From assembly GCA_945863875.1 (NCBI GenBank), contig CAMBBS010000011.1:1-64000 (forward strand): DNA of 64,000 nucleotides, given 5' to 3'. The position numbers and the translations under genes were made by a program. A model generated the notes under the pieces. That model was not told the DNA's origin and ran no database searches. It saw only the letters and a list, made by a program, of their open reading frames with translations. This stretch comes from Desulfopila aestuarii DSM 18488. GTDB lineage: Bacteria > Desulfobacterota > Desulfobulbia > Desulfobulbales > Desulfocapsaceae. Positions 37,164 to 62,717 of the stretch are shown in pieces (the first letter of the stretch is position 1; the number at the start of each line of letters is the position of its first letter).

Positions 37164-38000
37164 TCAGAGCAGCAACTCCATTCTGCTTTCCGGCAGAACG
37201 CCGGCCCGGCGCCCCCGCGCCATGAAGGCCTCTATAGCGGCAATCCCCTCCTCGCCCAAGTCTCGCGAAAACTCATTGACGTAGAGCCGGATATGGCTGC
37301 GGACTATGCCCGCCTCGAGCTCCTGGCTTTTGCTCCTGATATAGGGCAGACAACCATCCGGATGGGCGAACCCATACGCAACACTGGCCCTAATGGCCCG
37401 GTCAATGGCCGCAATCCGGTCCCGGCCGAGGCTTCTCCTGGCAGCAATGCAGCCAAGGGGTATCGGCAGGCCGGTGCTCTGTTCCCACCACCGGCCAAGA
37501 TCCTGCAGACAAAACAGCCCCTGTTCGGCATAGGTAAAACGGGATTCATGGATGATGACGCCCGCGTCGACTTGCCCATCTTTGATCGCGCCGATGATGC
37601 GATCAAAACGCATCTCCACCAGCCGCTGACCGTCCGGCAGAAACATCTGCAGCAGCATCGCGGCGGTCGTCAGTTTCCCGGGGATGGCGATGGTCATCTC
37701 GCGCAGCTCCCCCGGCGGTATCTCCGACGCGGCAACCAGCAGCGGCCCGCAGCCTCGGCCGAGTGCGCTGCCGGCAGACAGCAGGCAGTATTCATCGAGC
37801 ACATGGCCCAGGGCATGAAAAGAAAGCTTGGTCACATCAAGTTTTTTGGCCATGGCCCACAGATTGAGTTTTTCCACATCCTCGAGCACAGGTTCAGCAA
37901 AGGCAACTTCCACCGGGGCCACCAGGCCATGGACCAGGCCATAGAAGATAAAAGTATCATTGGGACAGGGCGAAAAGCCCAGGCTAAGATTTCCGTTCAT
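37164..38000 (-). CDS. mqnD: 1,4-dihydroxy-6-naphthoate synthase
   Basis: MqnD converts cyclic de-hypoxanthine futalosine to 1,4-dihydroxy-6-naphthoate in the futalosine route to menaquinone. The roughly 278-residue protein has the MqnD opening LSLGFSPCPNDTFIFYGL, VTKLSFHALGHVLDEYCLLSAGSALGRGCGPLL and VIIHESRFTYAEQGL. The ATG at 38000 overlaps the TGA of mqnB as ATGA, a sign of coupled translation. The other Mqn genes (mqnA, mqnC, mqnE) are not in the window. Confidence 0.92.
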   Translation of the reverse strand: MNGNLSLGFSPCPNDTFIFYGLVHGLVAPVEVAFAEPVLEDVEKLNLWAMAKKLDVTKLSFHALGHVLDEYCLLSAGSALGRGCGPLLVAASEIPPGELREMTIAIPGKLTTAAMLLQMFLPDGQRLVEMRFDRIIGAIKDGQVDAGVIIHESRFTYAEQGLFCLQDLGRWWEQSTGLPIPLGCIAARRSLGRDRIAAIDRAIRASVAYGFAHPDGCLPYIRSKSQELEAGIVRSHIRLYVNEFSRDLGEEGIAAIEAFMARGRRAGVLPESRMELLL

Positions 38001-38668
38001 GGGCAACATTGAGTCAATCCTTGTATCAGCTGTACCGCCGTATCGGCGGCTTTTTGGCAGGCCTCGGGTAATCGCCAGGAAGATGGCTGCCGGTCCTCGA
38101 CATAATTGGAGATACAGCGCAGCTCGGCACAGGGCAGGCTGAATTCGCGACAGACGCGGACAACGGCCGCGCCTTCCATATTTTCACACAGGCCATTCCA
38201 CCTGGCCTGCAACATTTCCCCTCGGATTTTTGTGCCGCTGACACCATTGACCGTGATGAATACCCCCGGATGACTGGGGATGCCGAGCCGTTTCAAAACC
38301 GAGCGGCAGCGCTGCAATAAGGCGGCATCCAGGGGCAAGACGATCTCCCCGGCGAGGGCGCTGTTTAAATATTCCATATCATCGCCAAGGCAGACGCCGA
38401 AATCACCGGCCACCTCCTGTTCGGCGAGGCAGATATCCAGCAGCAGCGGCTGGCGGCTCTGTTCGGGCAGGAGATAGGCGCCGCCGACACCGAACTGGAT
38501 AACCATGTCAAACTGTTCTCTGTTTGCACAGAGGAATCTGGTCAGCCGAAGCGTTGTTTCAACAGGTCCGACTCCGGTCAACAGTGTCCGGCAGAACACT
38601 GTTGATGGGGGCAAGGACGCAACAAAGGGGGCCATTTCTATTTCGGTTGCAGCAACTGCCAGAATCAT
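37997..38668 (-). CDS. mqnB: Futalosine hydrolase
   Basis: MqnB removes hypoxanthine from futalosine or adenine from aminodeoxyfutalosine. The 223-residue protein is a nucleoside-phosphorylase-like hydrolase: it opens MILAVAATEIEMAPF, with FDMVIQFGVGGAYLL, the substrate loop MEGAAVVRVCREF and RCISNYVEDR. The start at 38668 (MILAV) is used; a longer frame from 38728 adds basic residues without conservation. Its stop overlaps the start of mqnD. Confidence 0.9.
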   Translation of the reverse strand: MILAVAATEIEMAPFVASLPPSTVFCRTLLTGVGPVETTLRLTRFLCANREQFDMVIQFGVGGAYLLPEQSRQPLLLDICLAEQEVAGDFGVCLGDDMEYLNSALAGEIVLPLDAALLQRCRSVLKRLGIPSHPGVFITVNGVSGTKIRGEMLQARWNGLCENMEGAAVVRVCREFSLPCAELRCISNYVEDRQPSSWRLPEACQKAADTAVQLIQGLTQCCP

Positions 38669-38829
38669 GGTATCTACAACAGCTCCTTGCGCGAATAAAA
38701 ATTTTATCTTCTTCTGCCGCCTGTTCAAACATCCCGGCAGCTGGACAGCCTGTGACTTTAACGCATAATTTGACTTAATGCATGGTCGACAGCGCGTGAA
38801 CCGTCATTTTTCTCCCTACCCCACAGAGC

Positions 38830-52112: not shown

Positions 52113-53780
52113 TCACCTCTGACTGAAGGCCTGCGACGGCAGACGCAGATAGTTCTCGAGCAGCTGATTATCATCAAACTCCGCCTGATCAAAATAGATC
52201 ATCTGCGTATTGCGTTGCCGCGGATGGCCGGCATGGAAGAGCCCGGAGGGCGTCAAGAGAAGACACTCCGGACGATGGGCCTCAACCACGAGTCCCTTTT
52301 CATCAAAAAGGCTGTGGTGATACGCGCCAAGTGGCAGATTTTCCAGGACTTCATAGGGGAGAAGCCGGTATGTTCTGTTCTCGGCGCGGCGGTCCGCGTC
52401 GCTCAACGCCGCCGCCGGCCGAACGGTCACCAGCTGATGCTTGCCGGCAGAGTAATAGAGGACAACCTTCTGGGTGGGATCGCCGGCCATGTCAACCAAT
52501 TCGGGCACGACCGCATCGATTTTACCCGGCAAGCTGTTTTCCAGATGGAAGGTTTTCTCGGCTAATTTCTCCGGATACTCCGCACAACTCAACTCTTCCA
52601 GACGAGCGGCTGGAAAGACCTTGTAATAGCAGCCGCAGTTGGACACCGATTCAAACAGCAATGGCCGGTTATCCTGAGTAAGCGTGATGCGCAAGGTCCA
52701 GCCTTCCATCCGCCCTGCCTCGGGATCGAAGGTATGCAGTTTGGGGTGTTCCGGATACCAGAAGGTATAGACCAGTTGCCTGGTCACCGCCCCCTGAATG
52801 CGTTTGCGGTCGACATAGGCGTAGACGGCCGGCTTGTCGGTATTGACATGCGGGGTCACGGTGGAGGACGGAGAACCATCCAGCCAGACCTCGCCAAAGC
52901 GGTCGATGGAGGGGGCATAGCCCGGATTTTCTCGATGTTCCTGGACAAGCACCGGGGCGTAATATTCGAGAAGCGCCCAGTCGCCACCAAGCTGTGCCGG
53001 ATCAGCCGCAGCCGGCAGCGGCTCGGGGCTATAGACTGTCCGCAATAAAAAATCGGGTGCGTGGGCACTCCGGTCGTCGGTCTCGGCATGATACCAGATC
53101 CAGGCATAGACAAACGGCACCAGGGGGCCGGTGGCAACCATGCGCATGGCCCGGCCCTTACTCATAATGGATGTTTCGACACTGGCAACCAGCTTCTGCC
53201 AGTAGGCGTCAACCTTCTCTCGAGTCTGCAGAGAGAGAAAACCGTTCAGCTCCCTGGCGAACTCTTCGGCGGCATGCTTGCGATACCCATTGACGAATCG
53301 CTGCTGCGGCGTGTCCCCGGCCACATCGACATCAAAGTCGGGTTCGTCATCAAAAATATTCGCCTCGTTGGGTACCGTAGCAAGAAAAGCCGCCAGCTCC
53401 TCATCAGTAAGTCTGGCAGCGGCATTGACAATGACCCTGTCGTTCAAGGCGGCCGCCTCACGCAAAAAACCGGCGACGAAACTCTTCTTTGCCTCCAGGG
53501 TCGTTTGCTCATCATACAGTTCCACCTGTTCGAGCAGGGCCCGATTGACCTTGAGGTGCTCAAAGCCGTCAACGCTGAGATATCGGGCGTCGTTGACCTT
53601 TTTCTCCAGGAGAAACTTGTCCTGCGGATCAAGTGGCTCCAGCCGGGAATGCGGCGCCGGCAGATGAAAAGAGGCACAGCCGCCGAGCAGGAGTGCTGCG
53701 ACCATAAGGGGTAAAAAAGAGACAATTGCCCTGCTCCTTTTCCCGACAACCATCATGTGCGACACTGCATATGCGTTCAT
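52113..53780 (-). CDS. Large hypothetical lipoprotein
   Basis: A 555-residue lipoprotein. The basic N terminus is followed by a hydrophobic stretch and lipobox (PLMVAALLLGGC; Cys near residue 35). The mature part has no domain I can name. Its first half is helical, with VDAYWQKLVASVETSIMSKGRAMRMV; the second half is strand-rich with WALLEYYAPVLVQEH, DKPAVYAYVDRKRIQG and QLVYTFWYPEHP, and three clustered Cys (SNCGCYYK and ELSCAEYPEKL). An internal hydrophobic segment, TGPLVPFVYAWIWYH, may be a second membrane contact. It is 79 bases downstream of the U32 gene on the same strand. Confidence 0.6.
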   Translation of the reverse strand: MNAYAVSHMMVVGKRSRAIVSFLPLMVAALLLGGCASFHLPAPHSRLEPLDPQDKFLLEKKVNDARYLSVDGFEHLKVNRALLEQVELYDEQTTLEAKKSFVAGFLREAAALNDRVIVNAAARLTDEELAAFLATVPNEANIFDDEPDFDVDVAGDTPQQRFVNGYRKHAAEEFARELNGFLSLQTREKVDAYWQKLVASVETSIMSKGRAMRMVATGPLVPFVYAWIWYHAETDDRSAHAPDFLLRTVYSPEPLPAAADPAQLGGDWALLEYYAPVLVQEHRENPGYAPSIDRFGEVWLDGSPSSTVTPHVNTDKPAVYAYVDRKRIQGAVTRQLVYTFWYPEHPKLHTFDPEAGRMEGWTLRITLTQDNRPLLFESVSNCGCYYKVFPAARLEELSCAEYPEKLAEKTFHLENSLPGKIDAVVPELVDMAGDPTQKVVLYYSAGKHQLVTVRPAAALSDADRRAENRTYRLLPYEVLENLPLGAYHHSLFDEKGLVVEAHRPECLLLTPSGLFHAGHPRQRNTQMIYFDQAEFDDNQLLENYLRLPSQAFSQR

Positions 53781-53859: not shown

Positions 53860-55923
53860 TTAAAGTCTTACATCCCCCGGGACCGCCCTGTGCAGATACA
53901 TCTCTTCAGTCGGCAGGCTGCTCTCCGGTCCGGCGAGACCGACGGTGGCATTGACATAAGCACCATAGCCGAGTGGCCGGGGGCTGGCCGTGTGAAGATG
54001 CTGCAGATCCTCTAAACTGACAACCATCTCTTCGCCTCCCTGCAGCCGCGGCAGGCGGTCGAGATATTTGCGGTACAGAGCTACTATGACTTTAACCGTT
54101 TCGGCTGGGTAATACTGTCCTTCAATACGCACGGTGCGGGTGCCGATTGCCGCAACATGGGGCAGAACCTCAAGGAGACAGAGATCTTTTTCCGCCAGGA
54201 GATGGTTGCGGCAATACTGGTCGGGGGCCAGCAGTCGCGTTTTACCAAGCCGATCCCGCAGTCCATAGGTCGTCTTCGTGCAGTAGCCCGGACAGGCATC
54301 CTGCTTGGTGAGATGACCGAGCAAGCCGGTGATGAGACACGATTCCAGCAGCATGGTGGCAATACTGCCGTGCACCAGGAGTTCGATCGGCAACGGCGAC
54401 CCTTGTATAAGAGAGGCGACCCCGGCGAAAGACAACTCAGCGGAGAGGGTGGCACTGCTGATACCGATGGACTGCAGATATCCGAGCGCTTCGGCGTTAA
54501 ACAAGTTCCAGGTGAAATCGGCATGAATCTCGAAATGTGCCTGTGGATCGTTTTCCCGAATCAACGCATACGCCCCGAGATTTGCCGCGTACATTTTGCC
54601 AATACCCAACGTCTCCGCCTGCTGCAGAAGTTTGGTCAACTCAAAGGATTCCCGCTGACCGACAATTCTCGGGGAAGCAAGAGCGATCTCCGCACCGGCC
54701 GCTCCGGCCTGTTTGACAAGCTCCGTCAACTGCGCCAGGGACCAGGGGCAGCCGTGGTTTTTATAAAAGAACTCACCACCCACGATGATCAGCTCCGCGC
54801 CCCCGGCAAGGGCCGCCATGGCGCTTGCCGCGGAACCGCAGCGTACGGCCAGCATGGGCGCGACAACTGGTGCCGGTACCTCTCGCAAAGCCTGTTCGCT
54901 GAAGACAGTTTTCAGCGCCTCATCATGATCCTGCTCTTCGGCGACAAGGGAAAAGAAGCGCGGTTCCTGCCTGCCGGAATGGGCGCAGCCATCGATGCCG
55001 GGGTCCTTGAAGGTATGATTGGTGGTATAGTCCCGAACCCGCTGTTTTGACATGGCGGCAAACGGGCCGAAATCGGTGGCATAGCCATACGGATCGTCAT
55101 AATACCGGTCAATAGCCTGACGATAGGCCTGGACAATCGGCACCAGGTAGGCGGCGGGCCGGGCGCGACCTTCAATCTTGACGCAGTCAATCCCGGCGGT
55201 TATCAGCTCGGGAAGCTGATGGTAGAGGCAGAGATCCTTTTTGGCGAGAAGATAGCGGCCGGAATATTTGCCCGCCGCCCGGCCGGTCGCTGCGTCGATG
55301 AAATCCCACTGCCAGCGGCAGGGTTTGATGCAGAGACCGCGATTAGAACTCTTCTCCGTGGCAATTCCACTCAGATAACAGATGGATCCCTGGCTGATGC
55401 ACATATCGTTATGCAGAAAACATTCCACCTCAACAGCAGCCTCCTGGCGAATCCGGGCCATGTCGTGAAGTGGGATATCCCGCGAACAGACAATACGCCG
55501 AACGTTCTGCCCGCGTAAATGACGGGCGGCCGAGCTGTTGTGAATATTCATCATGGTACTGGCATGCAGCGGGACGCGCACATTGAGGCGACGGCAGAGA
55601 TGCAGAACCCCCAGGTCCTGGATCAGGAGCGCATCGGGGGCGAGATCCTCAAGAAACATCAAATAGTCGCGGAGCATGCCAATTTCGTTATTTGACAGCA
55701 GGTTGTTGACGGTCACATAGAGTTTCGCCTGATGCCCGCGAACGTAATGCAGAGCGGCAGTCATATCTTCCGGGCCAAAATTCAACCATGCCGCGTGCTG
55801 CCGCATACCAAAATGTTTGCCGCTGATGAATACGGCATCGCAACCGGCATCGATAACCGCTTTCAGAACATCGAGGGAACCGGCCGGGGCCAGCAATTCC
55901 ATTTTTTCAGGTGGAGAAAACAT
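53860..55923 (-). CDS. Tandem-U32 iron-sulfur protein
   Basis: A 687-residue cytoplasmic protein of the peptidase-U32 superfamily, whose members include RNA hydroxylases (RlhA, TrhP) and the quinone factors UbiU/UbiV. The N-terminal U32 unit opens MELLAPAGSLDVLKAVIDAGCDAVF and has the Cys set CFLHNDMCISQGSICY ... NRGLCIKPCRW. A second unit from about residue 365 repeats the pattern: ELLVHGSIATMLLESCLITG, QDACPGYCTKTTYGLRD and YCRNHLLAEKDLC. Two [4Fe-4S] sites are therefore likely. True proteolysis is doubtful. It may share a transcript with the aminotransferase 85 bases upstream. Confidence 0.82.
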   Translation of the reverse strand: MFSPPEKMELLAPAGSLDVLKAVIDAGCDAVFISGKHFGMRQHAAWLNFGPEDMTAALHYVRGHQAKLYVTVNNLLSNNEIGMLRDYLMFLEDLAPDALLIQDLGVLHLCRRLNVRVPLHASTMMNIHNSSAARHLRGQNVRRIVCSRDIPLHDMARIRQEAAVEVECFLHNDMCISQGSICYLSGIATEKSSNRGLCIKPCRWQWDFIDAATGRAAGKYSGRYLLAKKDLCLYHQLPELITAGIDCVKIEGRARPAAYLVPIVQAYRQAIDRYYDDPYGYATDFGPFAAMSKQRVRDYTTNHTFKDPGIDGCAHSGRQEPRFFSLVAEEQDHDEALKTVFSEQALREVPAPVVAPMLAVRCGSAASAMAALAGGAELIIVGGEFFYKNHGCPWSLAQLTELVKQAGAAGAEIALASPRIVGQRESFELTKLLQQAETLGIGKMYAANLGAYALIRENDPQAHFEIHADFTWNLFNAEALGYLQSIGISSATLSAELSFAGVASLIQGSPLPIELLVHGSIATMLLESCLITGLLGHLTKQDACPGYCTKTTYGLRDRLGKTRLLAPDQYCRNHLLAEKDLCLLEVLPHVAAIGTRTVRIEGQYYPAETVKVIVALYRKYLDRLPRLQGGEEMVVSLEDLQHLHTASPRPLGYGAYVNATVGLAGPESSLPTEEMYLHRAVPGDVRL

Positions 55924-56008: not shown

Positions 56009-57340
56009 TCAGGTCACATTTTTTTGCAGGACACCGTCCAGCGCCTGCAGAACTCGAACGATCCCCTCTTCATCGATAATCAAAGGGGGCATAAAGACGA
56101 GCACATTACGCTGCTGCCCCCCCTTGCCAAGGATAAACCCGGCATCTTTCATCTCTTCAAGCAGAGCATCCGTCATTTTTGCTGCCGGCCCGCCATCCGC
56201 CGAAACCAGTTCACACCCGACCATCAGGCCAAGTCCGCGGACATCGCCAATACATGCATGGCGCTCCTGCAGGCGGCGTAGCCCGGTCTGCAGTACGTCA
56301 CCCAGGCGCGAAGCATTGGCGACAAGATCTTCTTTATCGATTACGGCGAGAACCGCGCAGCCGGCTTTTGCCACGACCGGGTTGCCGCCGAAGGTAGAGG
56401 CCCGGGGCTGGGTAAATCGTGCCGCCACCTCCTCGGAGATGATCGCCGCGCCCATGGGCAGGCCGCCGCCAATCGATTTGGCCACGGTTATGATGTCCGG
56501 CTGCAGCGCAAAATGTTCGGAGGCAAACATCCTGCCGGTGCGGCCGAAAGCGGTCTGCACCTCATCCACCACCAGCAGGATCCGATGACGGGCAAGAATT
56601 TCTTTCAGCCGGGCAAACCATCGAGACGGCGGCACGACAATGCCGCCATTGGCCTGGATAATCTCAAGAAAAAAGCAACCGACCGGCACCGCAGCGGCGG
56701 CGATCGTCTTCTCGAGAGCATCGGCACATTCGAGGGAACAGCTCTCTTCACGCAGCCCAAACGGACAGCGGTAACAGTAGGGAGCCGGTCCATGCACCAC
56801 CGCCGGCAGCGGACTGAGATCGGTTTTCCAGAAACCGACGCCGGTGAGGGACAGGGTCAACTTGCTGTTGCCGTGCAGAGAGTTGAGCAGAGACGCATAG
56901 CCGCCTCTGCCCGTGTAATTCTGGGCAACCATGGCTGCGGTTTCATTGGCCTCCGAACCGCCGGCACAGAAAAACACCTTGCCGCCGGCCACCGGGGCGA
57001 TGGCGACCAGCCGTTCGGCCAGCTCGAGCATCGGCTCGGTCAGGTAGATGGTCGTGGTATGGCAGAGGGTCGCGGCCTGGGCACAGATTGCCGCCGTCAC
57101 TGCGGGATGGCAGTGGCCAAGATGATTGACGGAGACACCGGAAAAAAAATCCATATACGCCTTGCCGTCGCTGCCATGGAGATACACTCCCTGACCGCGG
57201 ACAATCACCGGGGGCCGCTGGTAAAAGTGATAGACACACGGCAGCAGGTACTGTTTTTTCCTGGCCAGGACGGACGCAGTCTTCTGTTCGGCAATGGTCA
57301 TTTGTTTTCTTTCCTGTTCCTGGATCATTTTCTCGGACAT
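56009..57340 (-). CDS. Class III aminotransferase
   Basis: A 443-residue PLP-dependent transaminase of the acetylornithine/omega-amino-acid group. The PLP Lys is K288 in ITVAKSIGGGLPMG, Asp 259 in LLVVDEVQTAFGRTGR. The N-terminal part has VNHLGHCHPAVTAAI and FFCAGGSEANETA. The insertion PAPYCYRCPFGLREESCSLEC, with four Cys, recalls AGXT2-like and related aminotransferases of unknown substrate. It ends the reductase-MMPL-ligase-hydrolase operon. AGGAGG lies immediately before the ATG at 57340; the ATG at 57328 is an alternative start. Its amine acceptor could be an aldehyde produced by the upstream enzymes. Confidence 0.85.
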   Translation of the reverse strand: MSEKMIQEQERKQMTIAEQKTASVLARKKQYLLPCVYHFYQRPPVIVRGQGVYLHGSDGKAYMDFFSGVSVNHLGHCHPAVTAAICAQAATLCHTTTIYLTEPMLELAERLVAIAPVAGGKVFFCAGGSEANETAAMVAQNYTGRGGYASLLNSLHGNSKLTLSLTGVGFWKTDLSPLPAVVHGPAPYCYRCPFGLREESCSLECADALEKTIAAAAVPVGCFFLEIIQANGGIVVPPSRWFARLKEILARHRILLVVDEVQTAFGRTGRMFASEHFALQPDIITVAKSIGGGLPMGAAIISEEVAARFTQPRASTFGGNPVVAKAGCAVLAVIDKEDLVANASRLGDVLQTGLRRLQERHACIGDVRGLGLMVGCELVSADGGPAAKMTDALLEEMKDAGFILGKGGQQRNVLVFMPPLIIDEEGIVRVLQALDGVLQKNVT

Positions 57341-57351
57341 CCTCCTGGGAG

Positions 57352-58143
57352 TTATTGACAGCGTACCTCGCCGGCAACAAGCAGATTTTTCACCACCCGC
57401 GCCGCCAGCCGCTCTTCCGACTGGCGGAAAAAATGGTCATCATCAACCAGTTGAAAGTCTTTCGGCTCAGGGATTGTCGGCCAGACCCGCGCCTGAACCT
57501 CAGGCTCATAGGTGAAATCCCTGTCACCGGTTATGAAATATTTGCTGCCCCGGCAGGCAGGCAGAAAACCATAGCTGTAGCGGCTGATCCATGGCATGGA
57601 TATGGCCGTCACCGAAGGTATCATCGGCCTGAAATGGGTCAGCAGCAGGCCGACGGCAGCGCCAAAGGAATAGCCGACGACATGCACCCTCTGCAGTGAT
57701 GGCCCCAGGCACTGCCGCAAAAAATCAAAGGCGGCCAACGCCGGTACCAAGGCCGCATCAAAACGCTGTTCTTTTTCCACGCTATCCCAGTAATCAAAGG
57801 CGGACAGGCCCGCAGCAAGTTCGATACTGCTGCCCCCGACCCCTGGATAGTTGAAACGCAGAACACTGTAGCCCGCCCGCGGCAGAGACGACGAGAGGCT
57901 GCGGATAACATTATTATCCATGGTGCCGGCGAAATGAGGGTGCGGCGACAGCAGCAGCACCGCCTCACGGGCCTCCACCATCGGATGGTAAATCAGCTGG
58001 CCTTCGAGCAGGCTCTCCGGTGCGGCAATCCACACCGTTTCTTCAAAAAAATCCTCCTCCCCGTCGCCAACGCTAGTAGAGTCCAATGGCCACCTGCTCC
58101 CCGCTGCTCTCTCTTGCCATGGGCGCCGGGTTGCGCAGGCCAT
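57352..58143 (-). CDS. Alpha/beta hydrolase
   Basis: A 263-residue enzyme with the nucleophile elbow VVGYSFGAAVG (GxSxG), oxyanion strand LLLSPHPHFAGTMDN, and VLRFNYPGVGGS. A late His segment reads DDDHFFRQSEE. The type is close to short-chain hydrolases that remove acyl groups from carriers. The start is uncertain: the ATG at 58143 overlaps the ligase by 71 bases, while a TTG at 58086 and a GTG at 58035 are shorter choices; a GGAGGAGG stretch lies near 58055. It is placed like LuxD in a LuxCDE operon, between an acyl-protein-synthetase-like ligase and an aminotransferase. Confidence 0.8.
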   Translation of the reverse strand: MACATRRPWQERAAGSRWPLDSTSVGDGEEDFFEETVWIAAPESLLEGQLIYHPMVEAREAVLLLSPHPHFAGTMDNNVIRSLSSSLPRAGYSVLRFNYPGVGGSSIELAAGLSAFDYWDSVEKEQRFDAALVPALAAFDFLRQCLGPSLQRVHVVGYSFGAAVGLLLTHFRPMIPSVTAISMPWISRYSYGFLPACRGSKYFITGDRDFTYEPEVQARVWPTIPEPKDFQLVDDDHFFRQSEERLAARVVKNLLVAGEVRCQ

Positions 58144-59170
58144 TGCCGCCTATGCCAAGCTCCCGGCAGGCGGCGGAGGGTTCAACAAGCTGCCCTTGGT
58201 CCCGTTCAAAGAGATTGATGATAAGAAAACTCTTATCGAGACGGCTGCAGACAATCTGGCCGGTCTCGCCGGCCTCGCCGGGATGAAACAGCTTTTCCGC
58301 CGACGTCAGCTCCTTGCCGATCGGCACGGTCTGCAGGATCAGGCGATTGCCGACCGGAAAATACTCCAGCGGCAGATCGGGATCACCCATAAATTCCGGA
58401 CACATGCCAAAAAGGGTATTGCCGTACCCGGCAATCATCACGGCTTTCGGGAAGGCATCGCCAATCTGCTGGAAAGCTGCACGTTCCAGGGTCATGCCGC
58501 CGAAGTGAATGCCGCCAATTGCCAGCCGCTGCTGCTCATCCATGGTTTCGGCAAGCCGCAGCAGAACTTTTGGCGTACTGAACAGCACCCCGATGCGCTG
58601 GGTGGCGATAATCCTCATGGCCTGTTCCAGAACATGGTCAAGATAGCGGCTAAACGCAAGGGACTGCTGGGGAAATTTTTTCACCCAGCGGGGATCGAAA
58701 TCAATGGCAAAGGGATCGGCCGATTCAAGGGCGGTGGCGCAGAGACGGGCCGCTTTACCGATAAGATGCGGCCCGCTCGGCCCGATCCACAGCCAGTTCT
58801 CCCCCTTGGGAAAATTCCGGCAGGCAGCGGCGATGACGAAAGGCTCGATAAAGGCCGCATGAAACTCTTCTTCCAGGTACATTGTCGTCTTCGGAACCCC
58901 GGTGGTGCCACCGGTCTCCCCGACAATCCAGCCGTGACGCTGCCGCCGATAGCGCCGGGGGATGAAATCCTCAATGGGCCTGCAGCGCAGGGCTTCAACC
59001 TCCATGGGACCGAAGAGACGCAGATCGTCAATGGTGCAAATATCGCTGGCAGGTCTGATACCAAGGGAATCCGCCTTGTCAAGCCAGTAGGGGGTGCCGT
59101 GCCGGCGATCAAAATGGATGTCGACGACTTCAGCCAATCGGTCATGGAGGGTGAGGGGCGTTTGAGACAC
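58073..59170 (-). CDS. LuxE/PaaK-like acyl-activating enzyme
   Basis: A 365-residue ATP-dependent acyl-activating protein. The adenylate motif GETGGTTGVPK is at residues 84-94, followed by NWLWIGPSGPHLIG, GVLFSTPKVLLRL, GGIHFGGMTLERAAF, and a late GETGQIVCSRLDKSFLIINLFERDQGQ. Size and pattern fit LuxE acyl-protein synthetase and the small PaaK group, rather than 500-residue acyl-CoA ligases. The GTG start at 59170 is 4 bases after the MMPL stop, with AGGAAA upstream; an ATG at 59233 would overlap by 58 bases. It may load a fatty acid onto the SDR-SCP2 reductase. Confidence 0.72.
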   Translation of the reverse strand: MSQTPLTLHDRLAEVVDIHFDRRHGTPYWLDKADSLGIRPASDICTIDDLRLFGPMEVEALRCRPIEDFIPRRYRRQRHGWIVGETGGTTGVPKTTMYLEEEFHAAFIEPFVIAAACRNFPKGENWLWIGPSGPHLIGKAARLCATALESADPFAIDFDPRWVKKFPQQSLAFSRYLDHVLEQAMRIIATQRIGVLFSTPKVLLRLAETMDEQQRLAIGGIHFGGMTLERAAFQQIGDAFPKAVMIAGYGNTLFGMCPEFMGDPDLPLEYFPVGNRLILQTVPIGKELTSAEKLFHPGEAGETGQIVCSRLDKSFLIINLFERDQGQLVEPSAACRELGIGGNGLRNPAPMARESSGEQVAIGLY

Positions 59171-59174
59171 GGAA

Positions 59175-61184
59175 TCATTTCCTGGAGTATGGGTGAAAAC
59201 AATAGAGTAAGGCCGGCAGCAGGATGATGTCACCGATCCAGGCGAGAACCATGGTCAGACCGCCCAGCAGACCGAAATAGCCGACCGGCTTGAAATCGGC
59301 CAGGGCCAGCACCAGAAAGCCGACGGTAACCACCAGGGTGGTGGCGCTGATCGGCCCGGCCATGTGGCGATAGGTCCGGTCAATCGCCGCATCGCCGTCA
59401 CCGCCGTTGTCGACTTCATGCCGCAGCCGCATCAGAAAAAAAACAGTATCATCAACGGCAATGCCGATGGCAATGCCAGCAATCATGATGGTCGCCACAT
59501 TGAGAGGAATCCCGGCAACAGCGGCGACTCCGGCCAGAATCATGACCGGGAAGAGATTGGCGATGCTGCCGATCACCACTATCTTCCAGGAACGGAAGAC
59601 AACGGCGAGGATCGTCACGATAACCGTCAGCGCCAGAGCAAAACTTTTCAACTGGGTACGCACCAGTTCTTCCTGAATACTGTTCAACAAAACGATCGTA
59701 CCGGTGAGCCGTTTATCAACACGGTCTACCGGAAGTTTGTCGAGGACCCCCTGAACTCGTGCCACCAGGCTGTTGAAGGCCAGAGAATCCATCTCATCGA
59801 CGAAAATGGACAGGCGTATGGCGTCACCGGCGTGATAGTGCACCGGCCGGATTCCGTCGATGCCTTTAAGCCGCTTGGCAAATTCCCGCACATATGCTGC
59901 CGTTGTCTCCGCCTCCCCGCGAAAATCAACTTCGATAGTGGCCAATCCGGTGAGATACCGGGCAATAAATGTATAGTCGCGGACAATGATCGAATCGTCG
60001 CGGAAAAAGCTCAGCACATTGGATTCGGCGCGAAGAAAGGGGATCCCGGCCAGGGGCAGGAGAAGGGCGACAACACCGACTGCAACAATCATTTTTCTCT
60101 GGCGGCGGATGAGGCCGGGAGAGATACGCAGCACCGCAGGCGGCGGTACGCGTAATTTCTCGGCAAAACAGGGCAGACGCAGGCCAAGCTGCACGATAGC
60201 CGGAATTATGATGATATTGCTGACAAAACCGATGGCGATGCCCACAGCCGACCACAGCCCGAGATCCCGCACCGGGTCCATATGACTGAAAAGTAACGAT
60301 AAAAAACCAACAGCAGTGGTAAAGGTGGCAACGCCGTAGGGAACCAGCACGGCCCCAAGCGCTCTTCGCAAGGCTTCATCGGGAGCGGTGCCACCGCCGT
60401 ACTCCCTCTGGAAATGAAAGAGCAGATGGACGCCGCCGGTAAGCGCCAGCACCCACAGCAATACCGGCAGAACGGTTGAGATCATGTTGAGGGTCATGCC
60501 GCAACCGGCGGCGGTGCCCATCGTCCAGCCGACCGCCAGTCCTGCGGCGGTCACTATCGCCGCCACATAAAAGACGGAACGAAACAGCAGAGAGAGGACA
60601 ATAAGCCCGGCCACCGCGGCCAGGGAGATAAAAATACGCGACTGCTGCTCGGAAATGCGGTCCAGTTCGGCATTGAGCACCGGTGGGCCGCCAAGATGGA
60701 ACGTATAGTCCGCAGCTAAGGGATCGAGCGCACTTTTCACGGCCGCGACCAAAGCCTGCCTGTTGTCTATCCTGCCCAGTCTCGCCAGATTCAGCAAAAT
60801 CCCCGCCACCTGCCGATCCCGTGACAGCAGCAGATGGCCGAGGCGGCTTCGCGTCCAGGGATCGACATCGGCAATGCTGACAACCTGGATGCGCTCATCT
60901 ATCTGCCGGAGAACCTTGCTTACAGCTTTCACCGCACCATAGGGCTGCCCGGCGCCGCTCGTTTCAACGGCAAAGGCGACCAGCAGCCATTCATCACTGC
61001 CGTAGTCGTTTTGAAACTGCTGATAAAGGAGATATTCGGGGCTGCCATGATCAAGCCAGACATCAATGCCGTTATCGACTTTGATTCTCGGCAGCTGGGC
61101 AAACGACCACAAGCCTGCGACCAGGAGCAGCAAGGCAAGCAGGAAGGAGTGCCTGACGATACCACGAACCATACCGGTCATCAT
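59175..61184 (-). CDS. MMPL/RND-type exporter
   Basis: A 669-residue inner-membrane protein of the RND superfamily, MMPL branch. It has two repeats of one helix, a periplasmic loop of about 150 residues and five helices. RND patterns are visible: VLLWVLALTGGVHLLFHFQRE and IMIAGIAIGIAVDDTVFFLMRLRHE (the second repeat with its Asp pair), followed by GPISATTLVVTVGFLVL. Relatives move lipids, hopanoids or mycolates. The ATG follows the reductase stop codon with no gap. It would export the lipid product of the operon. Confidence 0.87.
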   Translation of the reverse strand: MMTGMVRGIVRHSFLLALLLLVAGLWSFAQLPRIKVDNGIDVWLDHGSPEYLLYQQFQNDYGSDEWLLVAFAVETSGAGQPYGAVKAVSKVLRQIDERIQVVSIADVDPWTRSRLGHLLLSRDRQVAGILLNLARLGRIDNRQALVAAVKSALDPLAADYTFHLGGPPVLNAELDRISEQQSRIFISLAAVAGLIVLSLLFRSVFYVAAIVTAAGLAVGWTMGTAAGCGMTLNMISTVLPVLLWVLALTGGVHLLFHFQREYGGGTAPDEALRRALGAVLVPYGVATFTTAVGFLSLLFSHMDPVRDLGLWSAVGIAIGFVSNIIIIPAIVQLGLRLPCFAEKLRVPPPAVLRISPGLIRRQRKMIVAVGVVALLLPLAGIPFLRAESNVLSFFRDDSIIVRDYTFIARYLTGLATIEVDFRGEAETTAAYVREFAKRLKGIDGIRPVHYHAGDAIRLSIFVDEMDSLAFNSLVARVQGVLDKLPVDRVDKRLTGTIVLLNSIQEELVRTQLKSFALALTVIVTILAVVFRSWKIVVIGSIANLFPVMILAGVAAVAGIPLNVATIMIAGIAIGIAVDDTVFFLMRLRHEVDNGGDGDAAIDRTYRHMAGPISATTLVVTVGFLVLALADFKPVGYFGLLGGLTMVLAWIGDIILLPALLYCFHPYSRK

Positions 61185-62717
61185 TTACTGCTGCGGCACA
61201 GCGAGTTGTTCCCTGGGATTGAAGGGATAGGAACGAAAAAATTCCGACAAGGCGGTAATCACCTGCAATCCTTTTTCGATATCGCCCAGGATATCGGCAT
61301 CTCCATCAAAAAAAACCTGCTCCGGACGGGCCAGGCCCCTGGCAACCGTTTCAAAGGTGGCCAGAGCCGTGTCGTAGGTGCACTCAGGAACCAGGGAGTT
61401 CTGGGAAATAGCGGTAAGCATGCCATCTCGCAACTCCAGCATCCAATCCGGCCCGACCATATCACGGAAATGAATGGCCACAATGCCATTGAGGTTTTTC
61501 AGATTGCTCAGTAATTGCTTATGCAGCTTGGCGGGAAGGAACTCCTTGAAATACCTCTCGGCATAGGTGGTTTCTCTGGTTTTCGGCACGATTGCAGGCG
61601 GCGCCTGCTGCCTGTTTCCCCAGTTTTTGGCAACGGCAAAATCAAGAATCTTGCGGTAATATTCCTCATCAAGAGACGGAAAGCGCGTATCGTAATCGGC
61701 AAGCAGAGCGCGGCTCCGGCTCAGATCGAATTCCGGTTCACCAAACATATACTCGCCATATTCACTGAAGGCGGCACCGATCCGCCTGCCTTTGGCGGGG
61801 TTATCGGGACAGTTCCGGTCGCTGGGATCGATACACTGGATATTGAGGTCAAGAATCCTGCTGTACGCCTCGACAAGCTCGACAAAGGAGGGCGGCGATG
61901 GATTGGTAATATGAAATATTTTGCCGCCGCTCTGCGCAAGCTGTGATACATCCCAGATCGTATCGACGGCAAAATCAACAGGCACGATATTCAGTCGCGC
62001 GGTTGCCTTGGCTTCAATGATGACCGGTTGCCTGCTACGTCGCCGTGACAGCGCATGCGCGACTCTGATGAAGTTATAGATGTTGTTGAAGCGAATGGTA
62101 CGGCCACTCCGGCTGTCACCAATGAGAATAGCCGGGCGAAAAACCGTCGCGTTCAGACCCTTTTGTCGACAATACCCATGCACTTCCTGTTCAGCCAGAC
62201 ATTTGGTTTTTTCGTAGGGGTTTTTCCAGGGAAACGGCCCATTCTGCGGTTCTTCAAAAATGCGTTCCCGGCTGTCACCGACAATATATGCCGTGCTGAT
62301 ATGAAAATAGCGGGCCGTCCTCGCCTGTTCGACAAACTTCAAGACATGGCGTGTTCCGTCAATGTTGACGGCAACGGATTTTTCAACCTGGGATCTGTCA
62401 AAACCGGTATAGGCGGCGGCATGAAAGACCGCCTGCAGGTTTTCCGCCGCCTGCTGCCATGCGTCAATTGTCAGACCGAAACGGCGGAGCGTCACATCAC
62501 CAGGGACAAGCTCGACACGGTCCCGCACCACGCCCCACTCTTCCTGAGGCATACCCAAAAAAGAAAACACCTGGCGAATCCGTTCTTTTGCAGAGAAATT
62601 GACGCTGCCGCGCACCAGAAGCCGCAGATGAAAGCCGGCAGCCAGCGCCCGCAAGGCGAGCAGACCACCAACCAGGCCGGTCGCACCGGTAATAAAAATT
62701 GTTTTATCCGTATGCAA
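61185..62717 (-). CDS. SDR reductase fused to SCP2-like domain
   Basis: A 510-residue protein. Residues 1-370 are an extended SDR of the thioester/fatty-acyl reductase type: NAD(P) motif ITGATGLVGG (11-17), VFHAAAYTGFD, HISTAYIVGD and active-site NPYEKTK (Tyr 168, Lys 172), and VFRPAILIGDSRSG. From about residue 385, a second domain reads LNGIVAIHFRDMVGPDWMLELRDG ... ARPEQVFFDGDADILGDIEKGLQ, which resembles the SCP2 sterol/lipid carrier fold. Fusion of reductase and lipid carrier is unusual. The TTG start has GGGGAG at 10 bases. It is the first gene of the operon. Confidence 0.75.
   Translation of the reverse strand: MHTDKTIFITGATGLVGGLLALRALAAGFHLRLLVRGSVNFSAKERIRQVFSFLGMPQEEWGVVRDRVELVPGDVTLRRFGLTIDAWQQAAENLQAVFHAAAYTGFDRSQVEKSVAVNIDGTRHVLKFVEQARTARYFHISTAYIVGDSRERIFEEPQNGPFPWKNPYEKTKCLAEQEVHGYCRQKGLNATVFRPAILIGDSRSGRTIRFNNIYNFIRVAHALSRRRSRQPVIIEAKATARLNIVPVDFAVDTIWDVSQLAQSGGKIFHITNPSPPSFVELVEAYSRILDLNIQCIDPSDRNCPDNPAKGRRIGAAFSEYGEYMFGEPEFDLSRSRALLADYDTRFPSLDEEYYRKILDFAVAKNWGNRQQAPPAIVPKTRETTYAERYFKEFLPAKLHKQLLSNLKNLNGIVAIHFRDMVGPDWMLELRDGMLTAISQNSLVPECTYDTALATFETVARGLARPEQVFFDGDADILGDIEKGLQVITALSEFFRSYPFNPREQLAVPQQ

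Follow-up and report, generated by a model that had tools for sequence, protein, structure and literature searches.

Several described systems each share part of the gene set considered here. LuxCDE follows the same general logic of an activating enzyme, a hydrolase and a reductase. EhpF (phenazine) and GriC/GriD (grixazone) belong to systems for aryl carboxylate activation and reduction, and the known substrates of EhpF/GriC-like enzymes are aromatic acids; GriC, for example, activates 3-amino-4-hydroxybenzoate (PMC10179220). In the PigE route of prodigiosin synthesis, a thioester is reduced and the aldehyde is then transaminated (PMC8341465). Oxygen-independent hydroxylation of ubiquinone precursors is carried out by UbiU-UbiV, assisted by the SCP2 protein UbiT (PMC6747719). 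Finally, the hopanoid RND transporter HpnN belongs to the MMPL/RND family, as does the exporter described below.

Here we analyse a locus in a 64,000-nucleotide stretch of DNA from Desulfopila aestuarii DSM 18488 (contig CAMBBS010000011.1; "the window"). Each of its enzyme families is known and the combination appears to be new: our literature searches turned up no account of these genes as a set, in line with the first-pass annotation of this DNA, which knew of no pathway with exactly these genes. The cluster occurs in sulfate-reducing bacteria, Planctomycetes and a few further anaerobes. Its probable task is to convert a lipid-bound acid, which may be aromatic, to an amine by oxygen-free chemistry and to export the product. 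In our judgement the chances are about even that the locus is a member of an undescribed conserved cluster for the oxygen-free synthesis of an exported, aminated, lipid-soluble metabolite.

Gene layout and extent

Five ORFs occupy the minus strand between positions 56009 and 62717, encoding in order a reductase–SCP2 protein (RED), an MMPL exporter, an adenylating enzyme (EHPF), an alpha/beta hydrolase (ABH) and a class III aminotransferase (AT). The junctions are 0, -59, -71 and +11 bp, which bears out the genes, order and tight spacing first reported for this stretch. That report ended the operon at the aminotransferase; the five genes stand, and the 3′ limit does not, since two further genes on the same strand recur in related clusters. 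A tandem U32 protein (U32t) starts 85 bp past AT and a putative lipoprotein (LPX) 79 bp further, and neither the AT/U32t nor the U32t/LPX gap contains a terminator-like site. Because both recur with the same partners elsewhere, we count them in the cluster, and they are very likely members of the same unit as the five genes. The gene 237 bp upstream of the cluster reads as a putative glycogen-branching enzyme, and pyrC lies past LPX on the opposite strand.

Conservation and cluster versions

A scan of 84,980 species genomes with three EHPF seed sequences returned 80 loci. The top 32, from Desulfobacterota, Planctomycetota, Lentisphaerota, Magnetococcales and unplaced bins, have partner genes; the remaining 48, mostly from Streptomyces, have no partner genes, save for one marginal 29-bit reductase match. 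The EHPF tree splits the cluster set from these 48 distant homologues at 100/100, and EHPF, ~33% identical to the Streptomyces homologues, lies in a clade separate from them. Because loci were picked by EHPF alone, the partners constitute independent evidence: among the 17 of the 32 loci with enough flank, ABH is present in 17/17, RED or SCP2 in 17/17, MMPL in 14/17, AT in 13/17 and a U32 protein in 10/17. The five-gene neighbourhood is thus kept in relatives; the grouping is far beyond chance, and the set is kept together in at least three phyla.

The window EHPF does not group within the Desulfobulbales clade and may therefore have been acquired separately. EHPF occurs in only one of the nearest relatives of the window genome (57 genomes searched, the window genome included), and there is one further carrier among 395 genomes of the phylum. 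A search of viral contigs for EHPF found none.

In Desulfobulbales, including Desulforhopalus singaporensis, the order is cytochrome c, U32d (a U32 protein discussed below), RED, AT, MMPL, EHPF, ABH; we refer to these as sister clusters. The tandem U32 form is found in the window and in loci L039, L042 and L069, adjoining AT in all four, and the L039 cluster also includes a YceI-like protein. Planctomycete versions follow the order RED-ABH-(MMPL)-EHPF plus AT, with an MqnD-like gene in four loci and LPX in several. Across versions, two AT subfamilies and three different genes beside AT or RED occupy comparable slots, from which we infer that the same function was reached by replacement.

Two observations concern the margins of this set. 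In the Planctomycete loci L047, L049 and L051, genes for a radical SAM/DUF3641 protein and a family 2 glycosyltransferase border the cluster. In a same-family genome, L034:9546-11994 holds only the cytochrome, U32d and the reductase–SCP2 protein, with no EHPF match genome-wide; this is perhaps a reduced or ancestral version.

The adenylating enzyme

EHPF (58073..59233, minus strand; 386 aa) resembles the atypical ANL adenylating enzymes EhpF and GriC (EhpF 3hgu, E 2.7e-25). Its Pfam match to AMP-binding is weak, at 20.6 bits and beneath the cut-off. A family profile built from 18 members matches EhpF over its whole length (positions 12-373 of 373; 177 bits, 4.2e-51), and its sole other match, to a luciferase-like ligase, is partial. 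EHPF is therefore a full-length EhpF homologue and a predicted adenylating enzyme, not the LuxE/PaaK-like enzyme first proposed, for which no LuxE family match was found.

The wider parallel with LuxCDE fails as well: none of the five proteins matches PF05893 (LuxC), PF02273 (LuxD) or PF04443 (LuxE) at E <= 0.1, which rules out membership, and the hydrolase sits among general hydrolases. The EhpF and GriC/GriD systems share the EhpF-type enzyme with the cluster and differ from it in the reductase, since EHPF is paired with an R domain of the SDR type.

The reductase–SCP2 protein

RED (61185..62717, minus strand; 510 aa, TTG start) combines a thioester-reductase-type SDR with an SCP2 lipid-binding domain. 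The reductase domain (residues 1-366; 61620..62717) matches NAD_binding_4 with 151 bits (4.4e-44), and residues 2..366 align to the R domains of thioester and carboxylate reductases. The top NCBIfam match is thioester-redct TIGR01746, at 124 bits under its cut-off of 213. S141-T142 and Y168-xxx-K172 are invariant among 22 RED relatives. With an AlphaFold model (pLDDT 85.8), the best fold match was the MxaA R domain (Z 38.5), and ranks 1-16 were all thioester, carboxylate or acyl reductases (Z 38.5-29.9), with epimerases from 29.6 down. RED is thus an extended SDR with the S/T-Y-K residues, nearer to R domains than to epimerases, and a sugar epimerase is ruled out because epimerases rank beneath all R domains. 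The fold ranks, the TIGR01746 match and the invariant residues together argue for the acyl-thioester role suggested by the first-pass annotation.

The SCP2 domain (residues 399-490; 61248..61523) scores 31.5 bits against the PF02036 gathering cut-off of 21.3 (E 2.3e-07). SCP2 is absent from the fold matches, which span residues 2-370 only, so this assignment rests on Pfam. It agrees with the original call, and the domain is a separate ORF in six loci (L054, L057, L058, L059, L041 and L069); stand-alone versions score 30-52 bits. In L039, SCP2 occurs without the reductase and matches UbiT. The first-pass annotation had named two outcomes that would count against it, dispersal of the five genes in relatives, and an epimerase whose C-terminal part lacks an SCP2 fold; instead, the neighbourhood is kept, the SDR is thioester-reductase-like and SCP2 is present.

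The aminotransferase and the proposed amine

AT (56009..57340, minus strand; 443 aa) matches PF00202 (Aminotran_3) with 314 bits (1.3e-93), and the catalytic PLP lysine (K288) and D259 are conserved without exception across 22 aligned sequences. It is nearer to PRK05769/PRK08117 and groups with broad GABA/ornithine-type enzymes; its class III subfamily is not that of the sister AT of Desulfobulbales (about 32% identity). The sister AT scores 428 bits to PigE (equivalog cut-off 850), 391 to putrescine aminotransferase and 342 to solved PatA, so that its apparent nearest relatives are two enzymes that make amines from terminal aldehydes, PigE and putrescine aminotransferase. This closeness to PigE is the best support for the predicted aldehyde-to-amine step, and the PigE route shares the proposed sequence of thioester reduction and transamination. 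The prodigiosin pathway is not known to include the EhpF, U32, SCP2 and MMPL set. The PigE reductase differs too, being acyl-ACP-reductase/GluTR-like rather than an SDR (PMC8341465). AT is missing from L040 and, despite full flanks, from three Planctomycete clusters (L047, L049 and L051), so amination is not universal.

Could the cluster simply make fatty amines? EHPF would then activate a fatty acid, RED would reduce it to a fatty aldehyde, AT would convert this to the amine and MMPL would export it. NAD_binding_4 takes in enzymes that reduce fatty acyl groups as well, and DPW, an acyl reductase from plants, ranks fourth among the RED fold matches; the substrate of the PigE-like AT, 3-acetyloctanal, is an aliphatic aldehyde (PMC8341465); and SCP2 and MMPL handle lipids, with MMPL pumps also serving fatty acyl chains. 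We nevertheless consider this route unlikely, if far from negligible: EHPF is EhpF-like over its full length, neither LuxE nor a fatty acyl ligase, and no role is left for the U32, UbiT-like and MqnD-like partners.

AT might instead supply an amino compound that is joined to the activated acid in an amide or ester lipid, with the reductase acting elsewhere and no acid-to-amine conversion. The cluster has no condensation or acyltransferase gene and the sister AT is PatA/PigE-like, so that we give this scheme a small chance, despite the grouping of the window AT with broad GABA/ornithine-type enzymes and despite the D-alanylgriseoluteic acid to which EhpF's own pathway reportedly leads.

U32 proteins, LPX and MqnD-like paralogues

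U32t (53860..55923, minus strand; 687 aa) is a tandem protein whose NCBIfam matches make the N half TrhP/UbiU-like and the C half UbiV-like. The N half contains CX6CX15CX3C (C175-C182-C198-C202), in accord with the CX6CX15CX3/4C pattern reported for U32 Fe-S proteins (PMC6747719), and the C half contains a second set, CX14CX3CX22C, whose spacing differs from that of UbiV; three relatives have equivalent cysteines for both sets. The scores are well under the equivalog cut-offs (UbiU 173.5/440 bits, UbiV 61.4/275 bits), and the relationship is therefore one of resemblance, not membership. Like the UbiT-UbiU-UbiV system, the cluster pairs a U32 protein bearing two four-cysteine sets with an SCP2 domain. 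Unlike UbiU and UbiV, the U32 halves are fused in one chain, all are far beneath the UbiU/UbiV/UbiT cut-offs, and the cluster joins U32 and SCP2 to genes for acid activation, reduction and amination.

In the seven loci where it was measured, U32d of the sister clusters and RED overlap by 1-40 bp. U32d does not align with U32t, which rules out their being the same protein; they represent two distinct U32 subfamilies that apparently fill one role. At L127:8164-9357 (G000 contig 9, about 88.2-89.4 kb) lies a distant paralogue of the sister U32 (HMM 204 bits), in surroundings that read as an aryl-polyene/polyketide-like region; two ketosynthase-like genes and one radical-SAM-like gene are also there.

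LPX (52113..53780, minus strand; 555 aa) has no Pfam family above cut-off, and its AF2 model (pLDDT 48.8) was set aside as too poor for a structure search. Homologues lie beside the same genes in L041, L044, L047, L049, L051 and L063.

U32t and LPX might be housekeeping neighbours outside the pathway, U32t acting as an RNA hydroxylase: 85 bp separate it from AT in the window, and its N half is nearest the tRNA hydroxylase TrhP, an enzyme that requires prephenate (PMC6599085). This seems improbable, given that the genome holds three further full U32 genes elsewhere, that U32t lies beside AT in four loci from several phyla, that sister clusters have a different U32 overlapping RED, and that the gaps lack terminator-like sites.

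In four Planctomycete clusters an MqnD-like paralogue sits between EHPF and AT, the slot of U32t, and an MqnD-like gene and a U32 gene never occur together in Planctomycete clusters; this could mark a replacement or equally a different chemistry. These cluster proteins form their own clade (support 92/98), apart from MqnD elsewhere in the genomes, and three of the four Planctomycete genomes keep a separate MqnD elsewhere. Such cluster genes are limited to Planctomycete versions; the tested Desulfobacterota carriers have the usual two PF02621 genes only. Elsewhere in the window, at 37164-38728, a PF02621 protein carries the MqnD-type motif SPCPNDTFIF and its gene overlaps an MqnB-like one, a pair which suggests that menaquinone is made by the futalosine route; another PF02621 gene, MqnA-like, is at G000:C6:141129.

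The exporter and the hydrolase

The MMPL-family RND exporter (59175..61184, minus strand; 669 aa) matches PF03176 with 128 bits (4e-37). Its top NCBIfam match is HpnN, and at 140.9 bits against a cut-off of 751.85 it is not HpnN itself. A search for squalene-hopene cyclase found none in the window genome (98.5% complete), L039, L060, D. singaporensis, L050 and Desulfopila genomes. A hopanoid amine pathway, with HpnN-like export and a class III AT as in aminobacteriohopanetriol synthesis, draws on that top match and is very improbable, the score being so far under the cut-off and the idea largely refuted by six carrier genomes lacking the cyclase.

ABH (57352..58143, minus strand; 263 aa) matches Abhydrolase_1 (PF00561) with 31.9 bits (1.4e-07). 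Its ORF overlaps EHPF by 71 bp, so the true start may lie inside the called ORF. GYSFG and DHFF motifs are invariant in three ABH sequences, and the relatives are general hydrolases such as 3trd and 2i3d.

A proposed pathway

The preferred reading takes an acid by way of acyl-AMP, thioester and aldehyde to a primary amine, and includes a hydroxylation without oxygen as well as export; as a predicted whole, we think it might as easily prove right as wrong. Its acid-to-aldehyde-to-amine core is well supported by family logic, from which every catalytic step is deduced. The reactions, the substrate and the export are predictions that build on what the sequences show directly, namely the identity of the genes, their conservation, the active-site residues and the separation of the clades. 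EHPF would adenylate a carboxylic acid and hand the acyl group to a thioester, probably CoA because the cluster encodes no carrier protein. The reductase would then produce an aldehyde from this thioester, with the hydrophobic tail bound in the SCP2 domain, and AT would turn the aldehyde into a primary amine. The U32 protein, a predicted [4Fe-4S] enzyme, may hydroxylate a ring, much as UbiU-UbiV act when ubiquinone is made anaerobically, and ABH may cleave an ester or a misloaded thioester. MMPL would move the product out, possibly to LPX or, in sister clusters, to a multihaem cytochrome. Activation, reduction to an aldehyde, transamination and MMPL export, as the first-pass annotation had them, remain the most natural reading of the predicted family functions.

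We modestly prefer an aromatic acid, related to chorismate or menaquinone and perhaps prenylated, over a simple fatty acid because of the EhpF/GriC relationship, U32, the UbiT-like SCP2 and the MqnD-like paralogues. Of the long-chain amine originally suggested, the amine is retained and the fatty chain becomes only one option, as the U32, UbiT-like and MqnD-like associations favour an aromatic or quinone-type lipid. More speculatively, and doubtful as it stands, the product could be a new exported redox lipid: an aromatic acid, probably quinone-related, hydroxylated without oxygen and with its carboxyl converted to aminomethyl, used in the periplasm or outer membrane by multihaem cytochromes or a lipoprotein.

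Implications

The cluster would represent a multi-phylum pathway in anaerobes that combines oxygen-free (U32) chemistry, reductive amination and lipid export, all predicted. With Desulforhopalus singaporensis DSM 12130 and Desulfopila aestuarii DSM 18488 as cultured carriers, the product should be findable by lipidomics. A product of the quinone type would add a new, exported electron carrier to those of sulfate reducers and their relatives.
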